A DNA stretch of 64,000 bases from Acidobacteriota bacterium (GCA_902812365.1 CADDZC010000003.1:1-64000); one strand, 5' to 3'; numbered from the stretch's first letter, positions 39,297 through 52,256 are shown. The notes: a model not told the origin generated them from the sequence alone. A program made the numbers and translations.

Positions 39297-40811
39297 ATGG
39301 CGCCGATGATACGAAAAATGGGCTGCCTCCTGGGTACCGTCCTGGTTGGCGGGATGGTGGCAGCGCTCGCCCACCCGCAGGCTTCTGCGCCGTCCCGGCG
39401 CCTGTCAAAAGAAGCCGTTTTAGGGCTCCTGAGAGGCGACGTGGCACCGGTACGGGTGGCCGAGGTCGCCCGCGAGCGCGGCATCAGCTTCGCCGTGACC
39501 CGGGAAGCTGAGGCGGAGCTGCGGCAGGCCGGCGCCGACGACTTCTTGATCGCGGCGCTCCGAGCCCTCGCTCCGGCACCCTCGCTGAAGCCTCGACCTG
39601 GCGAAGCTTCTCTTATCGTTCAAGCACCGTACCCGTTCGCGCGCGTGTTTGTGGACGGCTCATTGGTGGGACTAATAGGCCCCGAGGGTGAACTGAAATT
39701 GACCTCTCTCAAGCCGGGCTGGCACCGCGTACGTCTGACTGTCGACGGGTATTCTCCGGAGGAGAGTCGGATCAACGCCGCGGCTGGTCAGACGGCATCC
39801 GTTGCCATCCGACTCGCTCCACTTCCATCACCGACGGCTGGAAGCGCTTCCGGCGGTCGCGTCTCGCCAGGACTGGCCTCACGGGAGACCCCCGGGCAAG
39901 ATCCGGTCTCTCCTCCGCAGTATATCCTCGAGCGGGTACTGGACGCCCATACCGGGTGGGTCACCGGAGTTGCTTTCAGCCCCCATAGCCGCTATCTCGC
40001 CACGGCGAGCTGGGACAAAACTGTCAAACTCTGGGACGTTGCCGCTGGCCGCGAGGTGGCAACGTTCTCCGACGGGACTACAGGCTACGAAGCGATCGCT
40101 TTTAGTCCCAATGGAGAGCGTCTGGCGGGCGCGACGGCGGCCCGAACCGTGGAGTTATGGGATGTCGCCCGGCGGGCACTGGCCGGACGGTTGGGCGCCG
40201 AACGCCGCCAGTCCGGGTGGATCTATTCGATTGCCTTTAGCCCCGACGGGCAACTCCTGGCCTCGAGTGTCGACGAAAGGACGGTCGACCTGTGGGATGT
40301 TACTACGGGCCGGCCGGTGCGGACGTTCGCCTCGTATCGTAAGCCCGTTGCGTACGCCGCCTTCAGCCCGGACGGGCGATTCCTGGCGAGCCCCGTCAAT
40401 GCCCGGAGCATCGGGCTGTGGGATATCGCCACGGGCCAGCTCGGGCGCATCCTGATCGGCCACTCGAAACCAGTTTACGCGGTTGCCTTCACTTCCGACG
40501 GCAGGCATTTGGCCTCCGGCAGCGCCGACCACACGGTCAAAATCTGGGACCTCACCACAGGCAACGTCGTTCGCACTCTGGTTGGACACCGCGCGGCGGT
40601 GACGACGCTGGCCTTCAGCCCCGAAGGCCGCTATGTGGCATCGGGAAGCAGGGATCAAACCATTCGGCTTTGGGACACGCTCTCCGGCAACGTCATGCAA
40701 ATCCTGACTCCCCACTCCGGCCGCATTTATACGGTGGCTTTCAGTCCCGATGGCACCTACCTGGCTTCTGGCGGCGAGGACGACACCGTCGCGTTGTGGA
40801 AGCGCCAGTAG
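39297..40811 (+). CDS. PEGA-domain and WD40 beta-propeller protein, exported
   Basis: 504 aa. A hydrophobic N terminus (about 8-28) suggests export. Then follow a small helical domain LSKEAVLGLLRGDVAPVRVAEVARERGISF (about 36-95), a PEGA domain with FARVFVDGSLVGLIGPEGELKLTSLKPGWHRVRLTVDGY (about 110-160), and seven WD40 repeats (about 215-504), each ending in a LWD-type motif such as TVKLWD. Seven blades make one closed propeller. PEGA and WD40 both mediate protein contacts, so a scaffold role is likely. Start ATG 39297; ATG 39306 is an alternative. It is divergent from the GEFT-motif gene. Confidence 0.85.
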   Translation: MAPMIRKMGCLLGTVLVGGMVAALAHPQASAPSRRLSKEAVLGLLRGDVAPVRVAEVARERGISFAVTREAEAELRQAGADDFLIAALRALAPAPSLKPRPGEASLIVQAPYPFARVFVDGSLVGLIGPEGELKLTSLKPGWHRVRLTVDGYSPEESRINAAAGQTASVAIRLAPLPSPTAGSASGGRVSPGLASRETPGQDPVSPPQYILERVLDAHTGWVTGVAFSPHSRYLATASWDKTVKLWDVAAGREVATFSDGTTGYEAIAFSPNGERLAGATAARTVELWDVARRALAGRLGAERRQSGWIYSIAFSPDGQLLASSVDERTVDLWDVTTGRPVRTFASYRKPVAYAAFSPDGRFLASPVNARSIGLWDIATGQLGRILIGHSKPVYAVAFTSDGRHLASGSADHTVKIWDLTTGNVVRTLVGHRAAVTTLAFSPEGRYVASGSRDQTIRLWDTLSGNVMQILTPHSGRIYTVAFSPDGTYLASGGEDDTVALWKRQ

Positions 40812-40978: not shown

Positions 40979-43261
40979 ATGGCAAACCACGATAAGGGGA
41001 GTCCCGCCCCGGCCGGGGACGCGCGCCCCCTGCCCCGAGTTTTGCTGGCCACGACGGCCATGCTGACGTTCATTTCCTTTTGGCGCGCGGCGGCCGTCGT
41101 CCTCAATGACCTGGCTTCCTCGGCCTTTTATGCCGGAGGCATTGCCGAGCAATTCATCGGACCCTCCGCTCCCTGGTACATCCTCGCTGTCATGCTGTTT
41201 GCGTACGCCGTCAGCCAGATGTACGTCGAGAGCTGCAGCATGTTCGTGCGCGGCGGCGTCTATCGCGTGGTCAAGGAAGCGATGGGGGGGACTCTTGCCA
41301 AGTTCTCCGTTTCGGCGCTGATGTTCGATTATATTTTGACCGGCCCGATTAGCGGCGTCTCCGCCGGTCAATATTTAGCTGGTTTTGTTAACGAATTCTT
41401 CGACTACGCCTACCGCGCCCATTATTTCAACTCCCGCTTCGCGGTCAACGCCAATACGACGGCGGCCGTTTTCGCCGTGGCGGTCACCCTTTATTTCTGG
41501 TGGCAAAACGTCAAAGGTATCGAAGAATCGAGCGAGAAGGCCGCCCGCATCATGAATTTCACCACCGTCATGGTGGTTCTTATGATCGCCTGGTGCGGCT
41601 ATACGATCTGGACGCGACCCCAATTCCAGCACCTTCCTCCCTGGCCCAAGCCTTCAAACCTCGCGTTCTCGCCGGAGGCGAGAGGCTGGCTCCACCATCT
41701 GCCGGAAGCTATCGGCGTGATTGGCGTTCTCGTCGCTTTTGGCCACTCGGTGCTGGCGATGAGCGGCCTGGAGACCCTGGCTCAGGTGTACCGCGAGATC
41801 GAGCACCCTAAACTGCCCAATCTCAAGAAGACGGCGTTCGTCGTCTTCGTCTACAGCATGCTGTTCACTTCGCTGGTCTCCTTCTTTGCCTTCATGATTA
41901 TCCCCGACCGCTCAGCCCGCCTGGCGTACAAAGATAACCTGATCGCCGGCCTGGCCATGCATGTCGTCGGACCCTTTCCGGCTCGGCTGGCCTTTCACGC
42001 CTTCGTCGTCGTGGTCGGCATCATGATCCTTTCCGGAGCCGTGAATACGGCCATCGTCGGATCCAACGGGGTGTTGAACCGCGTGTCCGAAGACGGCGTG
42101 CTGGCCGACTGGTTCCGGCGCCCTCATCCCCGCTTCGGCACCTCCTACCGGATCATCAATCTGGTGACCGGCCTTCAGCTACTCACCATCGTGTTGAGCC
42201 GCGGCAACGTCATCGTACTGGGCGAAGCCTACGCCTTCGGCGTCATCTGGAGCTTCGCCATGAAGAGCTTGGCCGTCATGGTGCTCCGCTACACGGAGCC
42301 GGGCCCGCGCGAATATCGCGTGCCGATGAATTTTAAATTGTTCGGAGTGGAAATTCCGGTCGGCCTCGGCCTCATTACCCTAACTTTATTCGCCACGGCC
42401 GTCATCAATTTGTTCACCAAGGAAATTGCCACCATCTCGGGCGTGGCCTTCACCATCATTTTTTTCGCCGTCTTCACCTTCTCCGAGCGGATCACCCGCA
42501 AGCGGGGACTGGCGCACGGGGGGCTCGACCAGTTCCATTTGGAATCCGGCGAGCAGCTCTCGCGGCAGACGGTGGGATGTCGACCCGGAAACATCCTGGT
42601 GATGGTCCCCGATTATTACAAGCTCTACCATCTGGACCAGGTGCTGCGGCGCGTCAATGTGGAACGCCAGGACGTGGTGGTGCTGCACGTGCGCATTCTT
42701 TTGCGCGCCGGCTCGGGAGAACACCCGCTGGAACCCGAACAACTCTTTACAATCAATGAGCAAGAACTGTTCAGCCGTGCCCTGAAGATGGCTGAGCAAT
42801 ACGGCAAGACGATCCGGCTGGCGGTCGTGGGAGCCAATGATATTTGGGACGCCATGGTTCGCGCCGCCACCAACCTGGAGTCCTCGACGATCGTGCTCGG
42901 AGCGTCCTCCAAGATGACGCCGGCGGAGGAGGCGCGGCGGGTCGGTGAGGCGTGGGAACGCTTGCCCGCCCCCAAACCCCAGTTTACGCTCCAGATTTAC
43001 ACGCCGAGCGGCGGGGAGTTCATCTCCTACCTCGGGCCGCACGCGCCGCATCTCACGCCCAAAGAGATCGACCTGCTCCATAGCATCTGGCTCGAATTCA
43101 GCGCCGAGCTGGCCCCCGAGGAGCTGCACCACCACGACATCATCCACTTCGCCCTGAATGAACTTCAGGAGGAGATGCACAATGGCCGGCGCCAGGAATT
43201 GCTGGCCAAGCTCCGGCAACACCTGGAAGAGATCAAGAGCCGGCGGGTACCGCACTTGTGA
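40979..43261 (+). CDS. APC-superfamily permease with C-terminal USP-like domain
   Basis: 760 aa. Residues 1-500 hold about 12 transmembrane helices of the amino acid-polyamine-organocation type (AVVLNDLASSAFYAGGIAEQF near helix 1, FGHSVLAMSGLETLAQVYREI in the core). Residues about 515-650 form a cytoplasmic domain resembling universal stress proteins (NILVMVPDYYKLYHLDQVLRRV, VVVLHVRI, STIVLGASS). A further charged tail follows. USP tails on APC carriers are thought to sense nucleotides. Substrate unknown. Palindromes precede the gene at 40881-40928. Confidence 0.85.
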   Translation: MANHDKGSPAPAGDARPLPRVLLATTAMLTFISFWRAAAVVLNDLASSAFYAGGIAEQFIGPSAPWYILAVMLFAYAVSQMYVESCSMFVRGGVYRVVKEAMGGTLAKFSVSALMFDYILTGPISGVSAGQYLAGFVNEFFDYAYRAHYFNSRFAVNANTTAAVFAVAVTLYFWWQNVKGIEESSEKAARIMNFTTVMVVLMIAWCGYTIWTRPQFQHLPPWPKPSNLAFSPEARGWLHHLPEAIGVIGVLVAFGHSVLAMSGLETLAQVYREIEHPKLPNLKKTAFVVFVYSMLFTSLVSFFAFMIIPDRSARLAYKDNLIAGLAMHVVGPFPARLAFHAFVVVVGIMILSGAVNTAIVGSNGVLNRVSEDGVLADWFRRPHPRFGTSYRIINLVTGLQLLTIVLSRGNVIVLGEAYAFGVIWSFAMKSLAVMVLRYTEPGPREYRVPMNFKLFGVEIPVGLGLITLTLFATAVINLFTKEIATISGVAFTIIFFAVFTFSERITRKRGLAHGGLDQFHLESGEQLSRQTVGCRPGNILVMVPDYYKLYHLDQVLRRVNVERQDVVVLHVRILLRAGSGEHPLEPEQLFTINEQELFSRALKMAEQYGKTIRLAVVGANDIWDAMVRAATNLESSTIVLGASSKMTPAEEARRVGEAWERLPAPKPQFTLQIYTPSGGEFISYLGPHAPHLTPKEIDLLHSIWLEFSAELAPEELHHHDIIHFALNELQEEMHNGRRQELLAKLRQHLEEIKSRRVPHL

Positions 43262-43292: not shown

Positions 43293-44288
43293 TTAGCCGT
43301 CGCCGCCGATGGCTTCCGCTGCTTCTTGGTGGCGCAGCAATTGCGTCACCGTTACCCCCAGACATATCAACACGACACCCGCCAGCATCAACTTGTTCAC
43401 ATACTGGTGAAGGAACCGATGCGCGAAGAGGGTCGCCATCAACGGGGTCAGCGATGAGACGGCGTAGACGCGCGCGACTTCCATCAACCGGAGTGCCGTA
43501 AAGATGCAGTAAATAGCGACAACGCCCGAAAGCGTCCCGCTCAACAGAAAACTGAGCCAACTGGGCCACGGTGTTTCAACGAGTAATCGCAGCCGCCCGG
43601 CCAGGGCCAGGCCCGCCAGCCCCACAACCAGGCTGGTGACAAACTGGAGCAGGATCGCCGTCGACTGGTGTGCGCCGCGAAGCTGCCCGTCCCGCCACAG
43701 AACTCCCGAAATGCCGTAGGAGACGGCCGAGAGCGCCGCCAAAGGCATGGCCCAGTACCACGCCGGAGACAGCGCGACACCACGGACTTGGCCGAGAATA
43801 AGGGCTAGAAGACCCACGCCGATCAGCGCCCACCCAAACAGCAAGAACCCCCGCAGTCGCTCGCCGAGCATGAACCAAGCGGCCACCGTTCCCCAGACTA
43901 CCCAGGTCTCCAGCACCGGTACGGTAATCACGACGCCGCCCAGACGAATCGCAAAGTAATAGATGAACAGGCCCAAGGTGGAAAGGAAGCCTGCCCAAAG
44001 AAAGGGCAAAATCGCTCGGCGACCGATGTACGCCTTCGATCCCGGCCAGAGCTGGCGGAACGTCCGATTTTTGATCACCAGGGCGATGCCCAGCACGACA
44101 CTCGGCAGCCCGCGCAGAAACGGCCCAACCAGCGGATCGCCGGCCGTGACCGCCATTTGATCGAAAATGTTCGCCGCCGCGTAGCCAAAGACTGCCCCGA
44201 GCGCCCACAGCTCACCCGAGCGACGCGAACCGGCCGGGGCGCCAACCGTTGCCGCCGATTTCCCTGATTTCTTCCCGAGCGTGGCCAT
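43293..44288 (-). CDS. EamA/DMT-superfamily transporter
   Basis: 331 aa with about ten transmembrane helices in two repeated five-helix EamA halves (about 30-170 and 180-320). It includes GVVITVPVLETWVVWGTVAAWFMLGERLRGF and VYAVSSLTPLMATLFAHRFLHQYVNKLMLAGVVLICLGV, the typical loop and helix of each half. Start ATG 44288 (MATLGKKSGKS); the frame extends to 44528 without support. The DMT superfamily includes riboflavin carriers (RibN, ImpX). This gene is divergent from an FMN-riboswitch-controlled receptor, so flavin transport is a reasonable hypothesis, but its sequence alone does not show it. Confidence 0.85.
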   Translation of the reverse strand: MATLGKKSGKSAATVGAPAGSRRSGELWALGAVFGYAAANIFDQMAVTAGDPLVGPFLRGLPSVVLGIALVIKNRTFRQLWPGSKAYIGRRAILPFLWAGFLSTLGLFIYYFAIRLGGVVITVPVLETWVVWGTVAAWFMLGERLRGFLLFGWALIGVGLLALILGQVRGVALSPAWYWAMPLAALSAVSYGISGVLWRDGQLRGAHQSTAILLQFVTSLVVGLAGLALAGRLRLLVETPWPSWLSFLLSGTLSGVVAIYCIFTALRLMEVARVYAVSSLTPLMATLFAHRFLHQYVNKLMLAGVVLICLGVTVTQLLRHQEAAEAIGGDG

Positions 44289-44430
44289 GGTGGAGTGAGC
44301 GATTATAGCCGTGTATGCGAGTTCGTGGGTCGCGTTCGTCACCGCGCGGCGCACGGATTTTCTCCCGTGCTGGGTTGGAAGGTGCGCCGGCAACGATGAT
44401 TGTGCTATATTAACCGAGACAATTCGATGT

Positions 44431-44593
44431 GACCTTCGGGGCAGGGTGAGGGAAGAGGTTTTTCCCAATTCCCGATCGGCGGTACAGCCCGCGAGGGAGG
44501 AAGAACAGGGGCTGATGGCGATGGCCACTGCGATTCATCCCACGATCCGGTGAAACTCCGGGGCCGACGGTACAGTCCGGATGGAAGAAGGTC
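44431..44593 (+). promoter_or_regulatory. FMN riboswitch (RFN element)
   Basis: P1 is a perfect 7-bp helix: GACCTTC (44431-44437) with GAAGGTC (44587-44593). Conserved segments follow in order: GGGGCAGGGTGA (44438-44449), AATTCCCGATCGGCGGT (44467-44483), ACAGCCCGCGAG (44484-44495), a variable P4 arm, GATCCGGTGAAACTCCG (44544-44560), GGGCCGACGGTACAGTCCGG (44561-44580) and ATGGAAGAAGG (44581-44591). These match the RFN consensus closely. An extra 17-nt hairpin interrupts the P2 loop at 44450-44466. An extended -10 box TGC-TATATT lies at 44403-44411. The element precedes a TonB-dependent receptor by 193 nt. Binding of FMN is expected to lower expression; the mechanism (terminator or ribosome-site masking) is not resolved. 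Confidence 0.95.
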
Positions 44594-44786
44594 AGGGGTG
44601 ATTTCGACGCTCGAGAAGCCTCGACGCCGGGACAGCGCGCCCGTGGAGCGCCGGCGGAACGATTTCTCTGGCGTGCCCTCCTTTCTTTCTCTTGCCCCGA
44701 AAAAACAGCTTTGAGCCAGCCGCTCTGGCCGAGGTGTCCGCTGGGATGGCACCGCCGCCGGAGGGCGACCTGGCGTGAGGACTGTC

Positions 44787-47700
44787 ATGACCAATATCAT
44801 CCGACAAGCCTGGCTCGGCGGGTGTCTCGCGGTCTTAGGCGCGGGACTCTCCCCGGCTTCAGGTCAGTCTTGGAACAGCAGTTTGGAGGGCGTCGTTTTT
44901 GATCCTTCCGGTGCGGCTGTCCCTGCGGCTTTGGTTGAGTTGCGTAATGAGGCCACCGGTCAGACGCGCCGGACCCTCGCCGCCGCCGACGGCGCTTACA
45001 GCTTTCCGCTGTTGCCCGTCGGCACCTATGATTTGCGCGTCGAGAAACCAGGTTTTACCCCGCAATTCGAGCGAGGCTTGGTTCTCGAGGTCGGCGAAGC
45101 GGCGCGCGTCAACGTGACTCTGCTGCTCGCGCATCGCCACACGGCCATCAGCGTGGAAGCGCGTCCCGCGCTGGTGGACACCGGTTCACCGGCGATCGGC
45201 GAGGAGATCGGCAACCGGCGGGTCAACCAGCTTCCCCTCAACGGCCGCCAGTTCTCCCAACTGGCCCTTCTCGCCGCCGGCACCGTGCCTCCCTACCCGA
45301 ACGGCGCGACGCAGCAATTTAACACCCCAGCCCTGGGGCTGGGATTCTCCGTCAACGGCCAACGCTCGGAGCGCAATAATTTCACCCTGGACGGCGTCAG
45401 CATCACGGAGCCCTTTGCATATAGCCTCACCGTCAACCCGTCGGTGGATGCTATCCGCGAGTTTCGCGTGGTCGAGAATTCTTACTCCGCCGCCCAGGGC
45501 GTCACCTCCGGCGCCCAGGTGGAGATCGCCACGCGGTCGGGCACAAATCGGTTCGCCGGCACGGCCTATGAGTTTCTGCGCAACAGTGCGCTCGATGCTC
45601 GGAACTTTTTCGACGCTCCCAGCCGCCCCGTCCCGCCTTACCATCAGAACCAGTTTGGCGGTAGCCTGGGCGGGCCGATTCAACGGGATCGGTCGTTTTT
45701 CTTTGCCAATTACGAGGGCCTGCGAATCCACCAAAGTATAACCAACACGACGCTGTTGCCTTCGATCGCTTTGCGAAATGGCGACTTCAGCGGCCTCAAT
45801 CCGCTCACGGGAAGGCCATTTCCGCCCCTGATCGATCCGGCGACGGGCCGGCCGTTTGCGGGCAACCAGATTCCCCTGTCGCGGATCGATCCTCTGTCGA
45901 ACGCCATCCTGGCGCGCATCCCCTTGCCCAACCAACCCGGTGCCGGGCCGGAGGAAAATAATACGATCAACGTCGGTGATCGAAAAGTCAGCTCCGACCA
46001 GTTCACCCTTCGGATTGATCATCAGTTGACGCCCAGCCACGAACTTTTTGCCCGCTTCCTGCTTTTCAATAGCGCTCAGCTTTTCCCCTTTGTGCCCAAT
46101 TCGTTTGCCCAGAACCCCTCAGCTCCGCCGGGTTTCGGAACCAACAAGGACGACAGCGGGCGAAATCTGGCTCTGGGTCTGACGAGTACGCTTCGGCCCA
46201 CGCTCGTCAATGACTGTCGCTTTGGCTACAACTACTATTTCGGAACCAAAGAAGCCCAGAACATTCACTCCGGGTTTTTGGAAAGCCACGGTATCCGGCG
46301 GGTGCCCGGGGCGACCAACGACGGCATTCCGGCTATCAACGTGCCCGGTTATGCGGACCTCGGCGACAGTGACATCTTCCAGCCGCAACTTCGCCGAGAC
46401 AATACGTTCCAATTTACGGACGCCCTGGTTTGGGTGAAGGGTCGCCATACCCTCCAGTTCGGTGGCGACGTGCGACGGTTCCGGTTGTTTTATCTCGTCG
46501 AAGACTTCGGCCAGGGTCTGTTTTCCTTTAGCGACGGACCGAGTTCGGTTTCAGGAACAGCCTTTGCAGATTTCCTTCTCGGGCGGCCGTTTCTTTCCTT
46601 CGCCCAGGCCGGCAATTCGGGCGGAAATGATCGACTCGACTACCTCGGGCTGTATGTGACGGATGAATTTCACGCCACCCGCCGCCTGACGCTCAGCTAC
46701 GGGTTGCGGGAAGAATTCTATTCACCGCCCACCAATGCCGACGGGCGCGCCTCGATTCTGGATCCGAGCGACGCCTTGCGCTTCATCGTGAGAAACGACC
46801 GCGGGCAGGCGCAGAGTCTAATCCAGACCCCGCTCATCGCAGGACTTCAGCAGCGGTTTGGACTTGAGTTTATGACCTCGCAGCAGGCCGGGTTGCCCCC
46901 GTCCTTGATCCGGCCCGATTGGTCCAACTGGGCGCCCCGCTTCGGCTGGGCCTATGACCTCCGCGGGGACGGCCGAACGTCGTGGCGCGGCGGATTCGGT
47001 GTGTTCAATTCGCTCGGCGAACTCGATTACGCCGCTGAAACCCGCCTCAGCCCACCCCTCACCGAATTTCTCTTCGGTCTCGATCTTTGCCGTTTCTTCG
47101 GGCCGGGCGCCTGCGGCCAGCCGTACGCCCCGCCGCCGTTGACCTATGCTCTAGCCTACCAGTTGGGCAACCAGCCTCCGGATGCGGTTTCTTCGCCTCC
47201 CAATCTTCGTAACGGGTACGCTTACGAGTATAGCCTCGCGATCGAGCATGAGCTGACACCCCACACCGTCGTGTCCGTAGCCTATTCGGGCTCCGACGCC
47301 CACAAATTGCCCCGCCGCGCGCTTCAGAACCAAGGCATACCCAACCTGCCGGGGCTGCGTCGAGGATACCATCCGCAACCGGGGCCCAATCAGTTCATCC
47401 GGGCTACGGACGTCAATTCCAATTACAATGGCTTGATTGTGCGGCTTGAGCGGCGGTTCGAGCCCGGGCTCTCCTTGACGACGAGCTATACGTGGGGTAA
47501 ATCGATCGATACCGCCTCTGGGTTGCAAGGGACGAACCAGCCTCAGGATAACTACAATCTGCGGGCTGAACGCGGCTTGTCTGATTTTGACATTCGCCAC
47601 CGGTTGGTCCTGTCAAGCACGTGGGATCTGCCTTTCGGGGCTGGGCGGCGTTGGCTGGCGGCTCCGTGGTCTAAACTGGCCGCGGGCTGGAAGTTCGCTA

Positions 47701-48149
47701 ATATTGTCACCTTCCAAACCGGCGAGCCCCTCACGGCTATCCTCCCGACAGCCTTGAGCGGCACCGATTCCAACGGCACTGATCGCCCTGATCTTATTGG
47801 TAACCCTCGACTTCCAGCCAACCAACGAAACCCCAACCGTTGGTTTAACACCGCTGTTTTCGTGCCGCCCCCGGTCTACCATGATGTTTTCGGTGCCTTC
47901 AGCATCCCCGGCAACGAGGGACGGAACGTCATCACCGGCCCCGGCCTCGCCGATTGGGACTTGAGTCTGGCTCGGGATATCCGCCTCGCAGAAAGCACGG
48001 TCCTGACCCTCCGCGGCGACGTGTTTAACGCCACCAATCATCCCAACTTCGATCGCCCCGGTCTCATTGTCGGCACTTCCAACTTCGGCAAGATCAGTTC
48101 GGCGGAGAACTCACGGCAAGTGCAACTGTCGCTCCGCCTCAGTTGGTGA
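44787..48149 (+). CDS. TonB-dependent receptor (Oar-like), FMN-riboswitch controlled
   Basis: 1120 aa outer-membrane protein. A signal peptide (about 1-26) precedes a carboxypeptidase-regulatory-like domain (SLEGVVFDPSGAAVPAALVELRN...LPVGTYDLRVEKPGF, about 30-110). The plug comes next (RRVNQLPLNGRQFSQLALLAAGT...NGQRSERNNFTLDGVSI), then a long beta-barrel ending in QVQLSLRLSW with a terminal aromatic residue, needed for BAM insertion. Start ATG 44787; a GTG at 44775 is possible. The RFN element upstream predicts repression by FMN, hence a role in uptake of riboflavin or a flavin-containing compound. The receptor class alone does not define a ligand. hemX starts 65 bp downstream. Confidence 0.93.
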   Translation: MTNIIRQAWLGGCLAVLGAGLSPASGQSWNSSLEGVVFDPSGAAVPAALVELRNEATGQTRRTLAAADGAYSFPLLPVGTYDLRVEKPGFTPQFERGLVLEVGEAARVNVTLLLAHRHTAISVEARPALVDTGSPAIGEEIGNRRVNQLPLNGRQFSQLALLAAGTVPPYPNGATQQFNTPALGLGFSVNGQRSERNNFTLDGVSITEPFAYSLTVNPSVDAIREFRVVENSYSAAQGVTSGAQVEIATRSGTNRFAGTAYEFLRNSALDARNFFDAPSRPVPPYHQNQFGGSLGGPIQRDRSFFFANYEGLRIHQSITNTTLLPSIALRNGDFSGLNPLTGRPFPPLIDPATGRPFAGNQIPLSRIDPLSNAILARIPLPNQPGAGPEENNTINVGDRKVSSDQFTLRIDHQLTPSHELFARFLLFNSAQLFPFVPNSFAQNPSAPPGFGTNKDDSGRNLALGLTSTLRPTLVNDCRFGYNYYFGTKEAQNIHSGFLESHGIRRVPGATNDGIPAINVPGYADLGDSDIFQPQLRRDNTFQFTDALVWVKGRHTLQFGGDVRRFRLFYLVEDFGQGLFSFSDGPSSVSGTAFADFLLGRPFLSFAQAGNSGGNDRLDYLGLYVTDEFHATRRLTLSYGLREEFYSPPTNADGRASILDPSDALRFIVRNDRGQAQSLIQTPLIAGLQQRFGLEFMTSQQAGLPPSLIRPDWSNWAPRFGWAYDLRGDGRTSWRGGFGVFNSLGELDYAAETRLSPPLTEFLFGLDLCRFFGPGACGQPYAPPPLTYALAYQLGNQPPDAVSSPPNLRNGYAYEYSLAIEHELTPHTVVSVAYSGSDAHKLPRRALQNQGIPNLPGLRRGYHPQPGPNQFIRATDVNSNYNGLIVRLERRFEPGLSLTTSYTWGKSIDTASGLQGTNQPQDNYNLRAERGLSDFDIRHRLVLSSTWDLPFGAGRRWLAAPWSKLAAGWKFANIVTFQTGEPLTAILPTALSGTDSNGTDRPDLIGNPRLPANQRNPNRWFNTAVFVPPPVYHDVFGAFSIPGNEGRNVITGPGLADWDLSLARDIRLAESTVLTLRGDVFNATNHPNFDRPGLIVGTSNFGKISSAENSRQVQLSLRLSW

Positions 48150-48213
48150 CTCAGAGCCTCCGAATCGGGGTAATATATTCAGGCGAGGTCGTTTTCATGA
48201 TCGGGGAGTGAGC

Positions 48214-49044
48214 ATGCAATCGGCTCTGCTGTGGTGCGCCCTCGGTTTCTACGGATTGGGCATTTTGTTGGCCCTGCCCTCGATGATGCGGCGGAGACCT
48301 TCCCTCCCCTCATCTACCTTGGCAGCCGTTGCGGTCGGTCTGGCTTGGCACGCCATAGCCCTCCTCACCCTGGCTCGAGCCGTGCATCGCTTGCCGGCCA
48401 TCGACGTGGAAAGCGCGATCTCGCTTTTAGCGTTTGGCGTAACCCTCGCCTTTTTTGTGACTTACTTGCGCTACCGCATTACCTCGCTGGGCATTTTCAT
48501 GCTCCCGTTCTCCTTTTTCCTCACCCTGCTCGCCGCTTCACCCCGGGGTCGCCCGGCAGACTTTCGGCCTTTCTCCAACACTTGGATCGTCATCCACGTC
48601 TCCGCCATGATCGCGGGCTATACGGCGCTATTCTTAACTTTTGTCGCTGCGATCATGTACCTGATCCAGGAGCGCGAGCTCAAATCGAAAGCCCCGCGAG
48701 CCTTCTATTACCGCCTTCCGTCCCTCGAAGTTTGTGATCAACTTTATTATCGGTCGCTGGTTCTGGGGCTCTTCTTGCTAACCCTCGGTATTCTGACGGG
48801 CTTCGTCTGGGCCAGCCGGGCATGGCGCGGCCCCTGGGAGCTGGACCCCAAGATTCTGGCTTCGCTGGCGGTTTGGATCATTTACCTCGTATTGTTTTCG
48901 ACCCGGTACAGCGGCAACTGGCGCGGCCGGCGGTTGGCCTACGGCGCCATCCTCGGATTTGCTGTCATCATGGTGACCTTTCTCGGGGTGACGTTTGTGA
49001 GCCGCCAGCATGGATTCCTGCCGATGTCGGGGAGAATGCCATGA
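48214..49044 (+). CDS. HemX/CcsA-like cytochrome c assembly family membrane protein
   Basis: 276 aa with about eight transmembrane helices. The segment WRGPWELDPKILASLAVWIIYLVL matches the tryptophan-rich DPK heme-handling motif of the CcsA/CcmC family. Its position directly before hemA-hemC-hemD fits HemX, which modulates HemA levels in other bacteria; a role in cytochrome c maturation is the alternative. Start ATG 48214 is preceded by GGGGAG. A TAATAT box at 48171-48176 may be a separate promoter after the receptor gene. Confidence 0.82.
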   Translation: MQSALLWCALGFYGLGILLALPSMMRRRPSLPSSTLAAVAVGLAWHAIALLTLARAVHRLPAIDVESAISLLAFGVTLAFFVTYLRYRITSLGIFMLPFSFFLTLLAASPRGRPADFRPFSNTWIVIHVSAMIAGYTALFLTFVAAIMYLIQERELKSKAPRAFYYRLPSLEVCDQLYYRSLVLGLFLLTLGILTGFVWASRAWRGPWELDPKILASLAVWIIYLVLFSTRYSGNWRGRRLAYGAILGFAVIMVTFLGVTFVSRQHGFLPMSGRMP

Positions 49045-49147
49045 TGAGGGTCGCTGTGAACTGGGACGCCATGAAGAGTTGCCCGGCAAGGGGGCGCGAC
49101 CGCGCCGCGGGCGTTCCGCCGAGCCGCAGGGCCGCTTTGGACTTGGT

Positions 49148-50413
49148 ATGAATCTCGTTCTGGTAGGTATTAGTCACCGCACCGCGCCAGTTGAAGTCCG
49201 AGAGCGGATGAACATTCAAGATCGCTATCTCGGCGGGGCGCTCGCGGAGTTGGTCCGCCGCGAGGGCATACAGGAAGGGCTTATTCTTTGCACTTGCAAC
49301 CGCGTGGAGCTCGCGGCGAGCGCCGACGAGGGGGTCGAGGCGCAGCGCGCCATCCGGCAATTCCTGTCCGATTTCCACCATTGCGACCTTTCCGCTTACG
49401 AGTCCTATTTTTACTGGTATCGAAATCGCGAAGTCGTCCGACATCTGTTTCGCGTGGCATCGAGCTTGGATTCCATGATCGTTGGCGAGCCTCAAATTCT
49501 CGGTCAGGTCAAGCAGGCCTACGCGGCGGCCCGCGACGCTGGAGCCTTGAAGGGGACGCTCAACGAGGTGATGCAGCAGGCCATGGCGGTGGCGCGAAGG
49601 GTCCGGCGGGAAACCGCGCTGGGAACGGCGGCGATGACCGTTTCCTATGCCGCCGTCGAGTTGGCCAGAAAGATTTTCGGCAGCCTGGCCGGCAAGACCG
49701 TCTTTATCATCGGTGCCGGCAAGATGAGCGAATTGGCCGCCAGGAATCTGCTCGGCGCGGGGGCGACTGCCATTTTCGTGGCCAATCGCACCTATGATCG
49801 GGCTGTGGAACTGGCCCGGGCGTTCCAGGGCACGGCCATTCGATTTGACGAACTGCTCCCGTATGTGGCGAAAGCCGACATCGTCATCAGTTCCACCGGC
49901 TCGCCGCACTTTGTCATCACTCGCCAGCAGGCCGAGCGACTGCTGGCCGCCCGCAAGAATCGGCCCATCTTCTTCGTCGATATCGCCGTGCCCCGCGACA
50001 TCGATCCTTCCATCAACGAAATGGAGAATGCGTTCGTCTATGACATCGACGATCTGGGCCAAGTCGTCGAAGCCAATAAAAAGCAGCGCCAGCATGAAGC
50101 CGCCTGGGCCGAGGAGATCATCGAACAAGAAGTCGAGCGTTCCATGTGCCGCCTGGCCTCCCGTGATCTCGCGCCCACCATCGTGGCCATCGAGGAGCGC
50201 TTGATACAGATTCGCGACAGCGAGATGGAGCGCTTCCGCGGGCGCCTCGCCACGCTCACGCCGGACCAACGCCAAGCCGTCGAGGCCTTGACCCAAGGCA
50301 TCCTGAACAAAGTCTTGCACGGGCCGCTGCGGGAACTGAAGAGTGTGGCCGGAAGTCCGGAGCACGGCAAGCTCGTCCAGCTCGTGCGGCGGATTTTTGG
50401 TGTCGGAGAGTGA
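49148..50413 (+). CDS. hemA: Glutamyl-tRNA reductase
   Basis: Reduces Glu-tRNA to glutamate-1-semialdehyde, the first committed step of C5-pathway tetrapyrrole synthesis. 421 aa. The catalytic Cys lies in LILCTCNRVE (about residue 49). SLDSMIVGEPQILGQVKQAY is the signature helix, GAGKMSELAARNL the NADPH-binding loop, and the C-terminal dimerisation helix ends the protein. Start ATG 49148 gives MNLVLVGISHRTAPVEVRE, the family N terminus. It is followed by hemC at 18 bp and hemD. Confidence 0.96.
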   Translation: MNLVLVGISHRTAPVEVRERMNIQDRYLGGALAELVRREGIQEGLILCTCNRVELAASADEGVEAQRAIRQFLSDFHHCDLSAYESYFYWYRNREVVRHLFRVASSLDSMIVGEPQILGQVKQAYAAARDAGALKGTLNEVMQQAMAVARRVRRETALGTAAMTVSYAAVELARKIFGSLAGKTVFIIGAGKMSELAARNLLGAGATAIFVANRTYDRAVELARAFQGTAIRFDELLPYVAKADIVISSTGSPHFVITRQQAERLLAARKNRPIFFVDIAVPRDIDPSINEMENAFVYDIDDLGQVVEANKKQRQHEAAWAEEIIEQEVERSMCRLASRDLAPTIVAIEERLIQIRDSEMERFRGRLATLTPDQRQAVEALTQGILNKVLHGPLRELKSVAGSPEHGKLVQLVRRIFGVGE

Positions 50414-50431
50414 CGCGGGAAGTCGCGGCGT

Positions 50432-51355
50432 ATGCAATTGACCATCGGCTCGCGCGGCAGCAAACTGGCATTGTGGCAGGCGCAATGGGTGCGTAGCCGC
50501 TTGCTGGCGGCCGGCCATTCGGTCCAGATTGAGGTCATCAGAACCAGCGGCGACCGGCTGCCCGCCTCCTCCCTGGTCGGTTCGGGCATCAAAGGCCTGT
50601 TTATCAAGGAGATTGAAGAAGCCCTCCGGGAGGGTAAAATCGATATCGCCGTTCACAGTTGTAAGGACCTGCCGACCGAACAACCGCCGGGCTTGGTCGT
50701 GGCCGCAGTCCCCGAGCGCGGCGACGCCCGCGATGTTTTGATCAGCCGCGACGGCCGCGGCTACCAGGAGCTCCGAGCCGGCTCCGTCGTCGCCACCGGC
50801 AGCCCGCGAAGGCAGGCGCAGCTCCTGGATTGGCGCCGCGACGTGAAGTTGGTCGCGATTCGGGGCAACGTGGACACGCGCCTGCAAAAGCTCGATCGCG
50901 GCGAGTGTGACGCGCTGGTAGTAGCCGCCGCCGGAATGAGCCGCCTGGGCCTGGCGGAGCGAATCACGGCGTACTTCGATCCGGATGAACTTTGCCCGGC
51001 CGTCGGCCAGGGAGCGTTGGCGATCGAGATTCGGCAGGACGACGCGGCGGCCGAGCGTGCCGTCCAACCGCTCGACCATGAGACGACGCATCGCGCCGTA
51101 CGGGCGGAGCGAGCCCTGTTGCGAGAATTGGGCGGAGGATGCTCCGTGCCCGTGGCCGCCCACGCCGTCGCCGAGGGCCACTCTCTTTATTTGCGGGCCG
51201 TGGTGGCCAGCCCGGACGGCCGGCGGCTGATTCGAACCGCCGGCAACGGCCCGATTGGGAAGCCGGAGGAGCTGGGCGGGAGGCTGGCGGCGGACCTGCT
51301 GAGGCAAGGAGCCCGCCGGATTCTGGAGGAGGTCGCCTCGCTTCATCAGGCCTGA
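50432..51355 (+). CDS. hemC: Hydroxymethylbilane synthase (porphobilinogen deaminase)
   Basis: Polymerises four porphobilinogens to hydroxymethylbilane. 307 aa. Motifs are IGSRGSKLALWQA at the start, HSCKDLPTE with the active-site Asp, ATGSPRRQAQLL, RGNVDTRLQKL, and the dipyrromethane-binding Cys in ELGGGCSVPVAA. It begins 18 bp after hemA, so the two are almost surely one transcript. Confidence 0.97.
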   Translation: MQLTIGSRGSKLALWQAQWVRSRLLAAGHSVQIEVIRTSGDRLPASSLVGSGIKGLFIKEIEEALREGKIDIAVHSCKDLPTEQPPGLVVAAVPERGDARDVLISRDGRGYQELRAGSVVATGSPRRQAQLLDWRRDVKLVAIRGNVDTRLQKLDRGECDALVVAAAGMSRLGLAERITAYFDPDELCPAVGQGALAIEIRQDDAAAERAVQPLDHETTHRAVRAERALLRELGGGCSVPVAAHAVAEGHSLYLRAVVASPDGRRLIRTAGNGPIGKPEELGGRLAADLLRQGARRILEEVASLHQA

Positions 51356-51407
51356 CGCTTTCCGAACCGGGTCCCGGCGGCCGGCCGCCAACTTTGGCCT
51401 CAAAGGG

Positions 51408-52256
51408 ATGAGTAAAGCTGACCAGGTCGATGCGCGTGAACGGCCGCTCGAAGGGTGGCGGATTGTGGTGACGCGGGCCCGCGAGCAGGCACGCGTCTTG
51501 AGCGACGCGCTGCGCCAGCTCGGGGCCGAGCCAGTCGAAATCCCCGCGATCGAAATCCGCGACCCTCCATCCTGGGAGCCGATGGATAACGCCATCGCCC
51601 GCCTGAAGGAATTTCATTTTCTGCTTCTGACCTCGGCGAACGGAGTCCGCAAGTTTCTCGGGCGGCTGCGCCTGGGCAACCGGGATATTGGCGATCTCTC
51701 CCATCTCGAAGTCGGAGCGATCGGGCCGGCGACGGCAGCGGAGCTGACCCAGCGCGGCGTGCGAGTGGCGTTCGTGCCGCGGGAGTATCGCGCCGAAGGG
51801 CTGCTCGCCGCGCTCGAGGGGCGCGATGTGCAAGGCCGGGCCTTTCTGATTCCTCGCGCCCGGGTGGCCCGCGATTTGGTTCCGCGCGTCCTCCGCGAGC
51901 GGGGAGCAACCGTGGAAGTGGTGCCGGCTTACGAGACCGTGACTCCGGTCTTTGCGCCCGGAGAGCTCGAACGCTTGCTGTCTCCCCCGCCCCACATGCT
52001 GACGTTTACCAGCTCGTCGGCCGCCGCGCACTTCTTCTCCTTGCTGGCCCGGCACCGGCTCGCCGATCGCGTCTCCGCCTCGGCCATCTCTTCCATCGGA
52101 CCGGTGACCTCGGCCGCGCTGCGCGAACTCGGCCTGACCGTGGACCTCGAGGCGCGCGACTTCACCATTCGCGGCCTGGTGGAAGCGATTCTGCAATACC
52201 GTCGCCGCCTTGCCACCCCTCAGCCGCACTCCGCAGCCAGGAGCCTGGGGCCTTAG
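51408..52256 (+). CDS. hemD: Uroporphyrinogen-III synthase
   Basis: Cyclises hydroxymethylbilane with inversion of ring D. 282 aa with the expected two alternating alpha/beta lobes: RIVVTRAREQARVLSDALRQLGAEPVEIPAIEI at the start, FHFLLLTSANGVRKFL, VGAIGPATAAELTQRGV, TFTSSSAAAHFF and SSIGPVTSAALRELGLTVDLEA. Sequence is poorly conserved in this family; position after hemA-hemC settles the call. Its stop overlaps the 3' end of the convergent peptidase gene by 4 bp. Confidence 0.93.
   Translation: MSKADQVDARERPLEGWRIVVTRAREQARVLSDALRQLGAEPVEIPAIEIRDPPSWEPMDNAIARLKEFHFLLLTSANGVRKFLGRLRLGNRDIGDLSHLEVGAIGPATAAELTQRGVRVAFVPREYRAEGLLAALEGRDVQGRAFLIPRARVARDLVPRVLRERGATVEVVPAYETVTPVFAPGELERLLSPPPHMLTFTSSSAAAHFFSLLARHRLADRVSASAISSIGPVTSAALRELGLTVDLEARDFTIRGLVEAILQYRRRLATPQPHSAARSLGP

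Follow-up and report, generated by a model that had tools for sequence, protein, structure and literature searches.

Why does a riboswitch for flavin mononucleotide (FMN) stand in front of an outer-membrane receptor gene? The question is raised by a stretch of 64,000 nucleotides from an Acidobacteriota bacterium (GCA_902812365.1, CADDZC010000003.1:1-64000), here called the window, in which a complete FMN aptamer is followed by the gene of an Oar-type TonB-dependent receptor. An initial annotation of the window had taken this arrangement to mean that an FMN-repressed receptor actively imports riboflavin or a flavin-bearing compound. Comparison with related genomes supports this reading: the aptamer and the receptor are conserved as a pair, the organism is a predicted riboflavin auxotroph, the receptor and the synthesis pathway are mutually exclusive, and sister lineages carry rib operons with the riboswitch. 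Beyond that annotation, the comparison adds the predicted auxotrophy, an apparent swap of the regulated cargo and a linked EamA-type permease. We consider it very likely that the system serves FMN-repressed, TonB-driven import of riboflavin or a close flavin, replacing synthesis, and hold with somewhat less confidence that riboflavin itself is the ligand. We also think it probable that this is the first TonB-dependent outer-membrane receptor for vitamin B2, having arisen by exchange of a rib operon for an importer behind the same riboswitch in a riboflavin-auxotrophic lineage of soil Acidobacteriota.

The riboswitch and the receptor gene

The elements that carry the argument are the following:
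44428-44596, plus strand: FMN riboswitch aptamer (RF00050), complete, 94.1 bits, only copy in the genome
44430-44437, plus strand: 5' strand of the P1 stem, TGACCTTC, pairing with 44587-44594
44587-44594, plus strand: 3' strand of the P1 stem, GAAGGTCA, pairing with 44430-44437
44787-48149, plus strand: Oar-type TonB-dependent outer-membrane receptor, 1120 amino acids (PF13620, PF25183, orthologues, fold match)
44880-45122, plus strand: CarboxypepD_reg domain (PF13620, Pfam), receptor residues 32-112
45528-48125, plus strand: outer-membrane barrel domain (PF25183 OMP_b-brl_4, Pfam, E 2e-222), receptor residues 248-1113

The initial annotation had recognized an RFN aptamer with perfect P1 pairing and proposed a search with Infernal and RF00050. 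Run with cmscan against Rfam 15, this search returned one complete match upstream of the receptor, covering model positions 1-138 (E 2.3e-20; gathering cut-off 66.2 bits), which is the sole Rfam match above gathering in the window; a scan of the whole 3.5-Mb genome found a single copy. All eight P1 pairs form with zero mismatches, and the outer pairs covary among relatives, the outer pair being G-C or A-T. The earlier description of the locus was accurate except for the bounds of the aptamer, which had been set a few bases short.

The receptor gene is the next gene on the same strand and starts at ATG 44787 or at GTG 44775 (then 1124 amino acids), 178-190 nucleotides from the aptamer end depending on the start codon; its stop codon ends at 48149. 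Both Pfam domains score far above cut-off, while NCBIfam offers no specific name. The AlphaFold model is of moderate quality (pLDDT 61, pTM 0.60) and matches solved TonB-dependent transporters in the PDB, including YddB (Foldseek E 2e-23, with similar values for many transporters), Cir, FepA, PqqU and BtuB; the predicted structure agrees with a plugged barrel of the TonB-dependent transporter type. By eye only, a TonB-box-like stretch (TAISVEA) can be seen after the N-terminal domain. The nearest named relatives (66-76% identity) come from draft, mostly metagenome-assembled genomes of Acidobacteriota from soil and peat that bear the label gp13 or Terriglobia, and all other matches in a one-genome-per-species collection lie at or below 34% identity, in a search that depends on short identical peptide words and may overlook relatives.

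Receptor and riboflavin synthesis exclude each other

We compared the family of the window's genome (39 genomes) with samples of its class (61 genomes) and phylum (396 genomes). Profile searches found no RibE, RibH or RibAB in the window's genome (RibD was not searched alone), and the flavokinase RibF (PF01687) is present there as in 34 of the 39 family members. With these synthesis enzymes absent and RibF kept, the organism is a predicted riboflavin auxotroph that would still be able to convert riboflavin to FMN. Lumazine synthase (PF00885), 3,4-dihydroxy-2-butanone-4-phosphate (DHBP) synthase (PF00926) and riboflavin synthase (PF00677) each occur in the same 15 family genomes. Of the 61 class genomes 59 have RibAB, the exceptions being the window's genome and G003, both receptor carriers. 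A hidden riboflavin pathway was rejected, as the three enzyme families are absent from 19 of 19 receptor genomes, yet the same models match control genomes and the 15 relatives. Incomplete assembly was also rejected as the cause, since the pathway is missing from every receptor genome, including those with a completeness of up to 98%.

These genomes encode very many Oar-type receptors. Orthologues of the window's receptor (66-77% identity) occur in 18 family genomes and in G027, there as a 199-residue fragment at a contig end, giving 19 of 39; other receptors in the family reach at most about 40% identity to it. Receptor and pathway never occur together: 19 genomes have the receptor, 15 have the rib genes and none has both. 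The five family genomes with neither are 58-80% complete. In G003 (L032, 6579-9735) the receptor frame is split into two overlapping frames near residue 220, by a sequencing error or a real frameshift. Sixteen receptor loci have a readable leader; a survey of the orthologues for upstream aptamers, suggested in the initial annotation, found a complete FMN aptamer 5' of the receptor in 15 of them. Some relatives score only 40-58 bits; degeneration of these aptamers was considered and dismissed after a motif search had recovered intact cores with long variable stems.

The regulated cargo and its history

Ten of the rib genomes carry the FMN riboswitch directly 5' of their rib genes, in the order ribE, ribH, ribAB, ribD (in G016 and G028 parts of the operon lie on different contigs). 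The usual order in receptor genomes is amino-acid permease, EamA permease (minus strand), riboswitch, receptor. The rib genome G016 has the amino-acid permease directly 5' of riboswitch and ribE, and it looks as though one regulated cargo had taken the place of the other at a single locus behind the same riboswitch; the order of these events we infer. In G005, G021, G014, G026 and G030 (L128-L132), unlike in sister genera, the rib operons have no detectable FMN aptamer, which is a loss of riboswitch control.

On the rpoB tree the rib state appears in three places, a large clade with riboswitch-rib operons, G016 alone, and a clade of G005, G014, G021 and G030 that is nested among receptor genomes and whose rib operons lack a detectable aptamer. 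This requires a minimum of three changes between rib and receptor, two of them forced by well-supported branches. RibAB proteins of the nested clade share 72-76% identity with those of the large clade, about 45% with those of most other class families and 68% with those of one. Judged by this pattern, the rib genes of the nested clade seem to have been passed down inside the family, and horizontal regain is not supported. The receptor of genus g12 (G011, G024) clusters with that of genus g3 and the EamA permease of g12 with that of the window's genome, the riboswitch-receptor pair and EamA lying on different contigs (L198, G011:C156; L126, L047). Phylogenetically, the pair may have moved into g12 as a unit.

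No riboswitch-receptor arrangement was found outside the family among the phylum genomes sampled. RF00050 matches above cut-off occur in six genomes outside the family, with a RibB/RibAB-type gene nearby in G405, G429, G134, G189 and G465; the sixth is G283. The riboswitch is rare elsewhere in the phylum and mostly near RibB/RibAB, and the receptor arrangement is thus so far confined to this family.

Neighbouring genes

Two permease genes lie upstream of the riboswitch:
43293-44291, minus strand: EamA-type permease (PF00892), divergent from the riboswitch, candidate inner-membrane riboflavin carrier
40979-43261, plus strand: amino-acid permease (PF13520), conserved neighbour by synteny, directly 5' of riboswitch-ribE in G016

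Of the 19 receptor genomes 18 have an EamA orthologue (54-71% identity), as against none of the 15 rib genomes; orthologues also occur in two incomplete genomes with neither receptor nor pathway (G007, G035). The gene adjoins the riboswitch-receptor pair in most loci. NCBIfam has no model above cut-off for it. From this distribution the EamA permease is the best candidate for the inner-membrane partner and probably a riboflavin carrier. A PnuC/RibM-type partner was rejected, PF04973 being absent from all 39 family genomes. We do not think that the amino-acid permease is part of the uptake system. Upstream of it, a gene at 39297-40811 (plus strand) encodes a secreted-looking protein of 504 amino acids, the C-terminal half of which reads as WD40 repeats.

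The initial annotation had noted that no riboflavin synthesis gene lies downstream of the aptamer, and this holds: a ccsA-like gene, named from Pfam, and genes that we take from their translations to be hemA, hemC and hemD follow at 48211-52256, about 64 nucleotides behind the receptor and on the same strand. No terminator-like site was found in this gap. In the other family members searched, none of the ccsA-like and hem genes lies close to the receptor, and FMN control of heme synthesis by read-through would therefore be peculiar to this genome.

The receptor leader

Between aptamer and receptor, two elements may form the expression platform:
44693-44701, plus strand: anti-aptamer segment TGCCCCGAA, complementary to 44435-44443 (TTCGGGGCA)
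44760-44765, plus strand: candidate Shine-Dalgarno sequence GGAGGG, inferred from sequence, for the GTG start at 44775 (alternative ATG 44787)

The complement between TGCCCCGAA and the 5' strand of the aptamer is perfect, and the unconstrained minimum-energy fold of the leader includes this pairing. Complementary motifs occur in most family leaders, with a summed longest complement of 206 across 25 leaders, where 200 dinucleotide shuffles reached 166 at most. In rib-type aptamers with CTTCAGGGC the motif is mostly CCTGA instead of CCCGA, a matching change on both sides. Several receptor leaders have a GAGG-like site and a TTG codon immediately after the motif, which suggests translational control in those leaders. 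In the window, GGAGGG lies nine bases 5' of GTG 44775. Scans of 44200-44900 for an intrinsic terminator and a sigma-70 promoter found neither.

A proposed uptake route and its alternatives

We propose that the anti-aptamer fold forms in the leader at low cellular FMN and that the receptor is then produced. Energised by TonB, the receptor would bring riboflavin or a close flavin as far as the periplasm, and the divergent EamA permease would probably carry it across the inner membrane. RibF would then turn imported riboflavin into FMN and flavin adenine dinucleotide (FAD), and high FMN would occupy the aptamer and switch receptor production off. In the receptor lineages the rib operon is gone, and the riboswitch would have come to control an importer. 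The reasoning from an FMN riboswitch on a non-rib gene to a riboflavin transporter has been confirmed by complementation for several inner-membrane carriers (PMC4418817).

Several observations weigh against flavin import as proposed here. The exclusion limit of porins is about 600 Da (PMC11677807); riboflavin is small enough to pass, and an energised receptor is thus not obviously needed. As porin diffusion is possible, the receptor would serve scavenging at low concentration. Since the EamA gene is divergent from the riboswitch, it is not under its control. Folding of the window's leader predicts identical accessibility of the start region whether P1 or the anti-aptamer pairing is forced, by which simple sequestration of the ribosome site was rejected for this genome. 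The perfect anticorrelation of receptor and pathway, and with it the swap, depends on only two or three independent transitions, and we assign no probability to the anticorrelation. Finally, orthologues lacking the aptamer, which the initial annotation regarded as telling against its proposal, come down to that of G019, the one exception among the readable loci, where the leader is disrupted. An inserted pair of short reading frames, VapBC-like by eye, interrupts this leader (L123, G019:C375, 1000-2300).

Ligands other than free riboflavin have to be considered as well. An unlikely alternative is that the receptor brings in FMN, FAD, a flavin-peptide or a flavin bound to a carrier, and that this compound is processed in the periplasm ahead of its transport across the inner membrane. 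As a matter of general knowledge, the larger, charged FMN and FAD pass porins less readily and would better justify an energised receptor, and RibN has been reported to take up FMN besides riboflavin (PMC4418817); however, the conserved locus contains no periplasmic phosphatase- or peptidase-like gene, and RibF accepts riboflavin directly. It is improbable that the receptor takes up a non-flavin ligand, such as iron or a peptide, with the FMN riboswitch acting as a redox or growth signal or captured by chance after loss of the rib operon. The abundance of Oar-type receptors with unassigned ligands would fit such a ligand, and a riboswitch left over from a lost rib operon could end up before any gene, but the association has been kept with intact aptamer cores while the orthologues diverged to 66-77% identity. 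Moreover, the host must import flavin, receptor and EamA are confined to genomes without the pathway, and genus g12 keeps riboswitch and receptor linked away from the EamA locus.

Even less credible, in our judgement, is that the receptor exports, for example by secreting a protein that frees flavins from the surroundings. Its domain layout is Oar-like, and Oar of Myxococcus is a TonB-dependent transporter needed for secretion of the protease PopC (PMC6434023, PMC11658791), but no conserved secreted enzyme lies beside the receptor in relatives, where the conserved neighbours are the EamA and amino-acid permeases. Import of riboflavin or a close flavin through the receptor can be tested directly, as rib-type and receptor-type relatives form a natural pairing.

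Comparison with known systems

It seems that an uncultured group of soil Acidobacteriota has lost its vitamin B2 synthesis genes and that the riboswitch now stands before an outer-membrane importer. For 842 FMN riboswitches surveyed across 1133 genomes, the non-biosynthetic targets given are RibU, RibM, ImpX, RibN, RfuABCD, RibXY, RibZ, RibV and two oddities, with no mention of TonB or the outer membrane (PMC4418817). Neither is mentioned in a second survey, according to which RibXY takes the place of the absent rib operon of Roseiflexus castenholzii (PMC3766115). Riboflavin goes unmentioned in a review of TonB-dependent transporters from 2024 (PMC11658791). Cobalamin and thiamine pyrophosphate (TPP) riboswitches are known before TonB receptors (PMC5756330, PMC10409787); in the literature searched, open-access papers only, we found no outer-membrane receptor controlled by an FMN riboswitch. 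The surveyed riboflavin transporters all act at the cytoplasmic membrane, and the receptor, if our reading is true, would be the first outer-membrane gate known for this vitamin. A dedicated, FMN-regulated receptor of this kind would show that riboflavin can be scarce enough to warrant energised uptake. One of the many Oar-type receptors of Acidobacteriota that have no assigned ligand would thereby gain one, and the addition of riboflavin to media would suggest itself for growing these soil bacteria.

The locus shares an FMN riboswitch before a transporter gene with RibU, RibM/PnuX, RibN, ImpX, RibXY and RibZ (PMC4418817, PMC3766115), and in R. castenholzii, too, RibXY makes up for the lack of a rib operon. 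Whereas RibU, RibM, RibN, ImpX, RibXY and RibZ act at the cytoplasmic membrane, the regulated gene here encodes an outer-membrane receptor and the candidate inner carrier is separate and divergent. That a small redox cofactor can be taken up by a TonB-dependent route has a precedent in PqqU (YncD) of E. coli, which matches the fold of the receptor (E 2.1e-20) with about 9% identity and belongs to another subfamily with another ligand. Oar of Myxococcus xanthus appears to share the layout of the receptor, in which a regulatory-like domain at the N-terminus precedes plug and barrel. Oar is also a large TonB-dependent transporter (PMC6434023); it differs in being needed for protease secretion and in having no reported FMN riboswitch. 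Repression of a TonB receptor by a vitamin cofactor through a leader riboswitch, as proposed here, links the locus to btuB-type receptors with cobalamin riboswitches and to predicted thiamine receptors with TPP riboswitches (PMC11162775, PMC5756330, PMC10409787). In contrast to these, the riboswitch and the presumed vitamin are others and the receptor is of the Oar type, sharing with BtuB about 8% identity and only the common fold.

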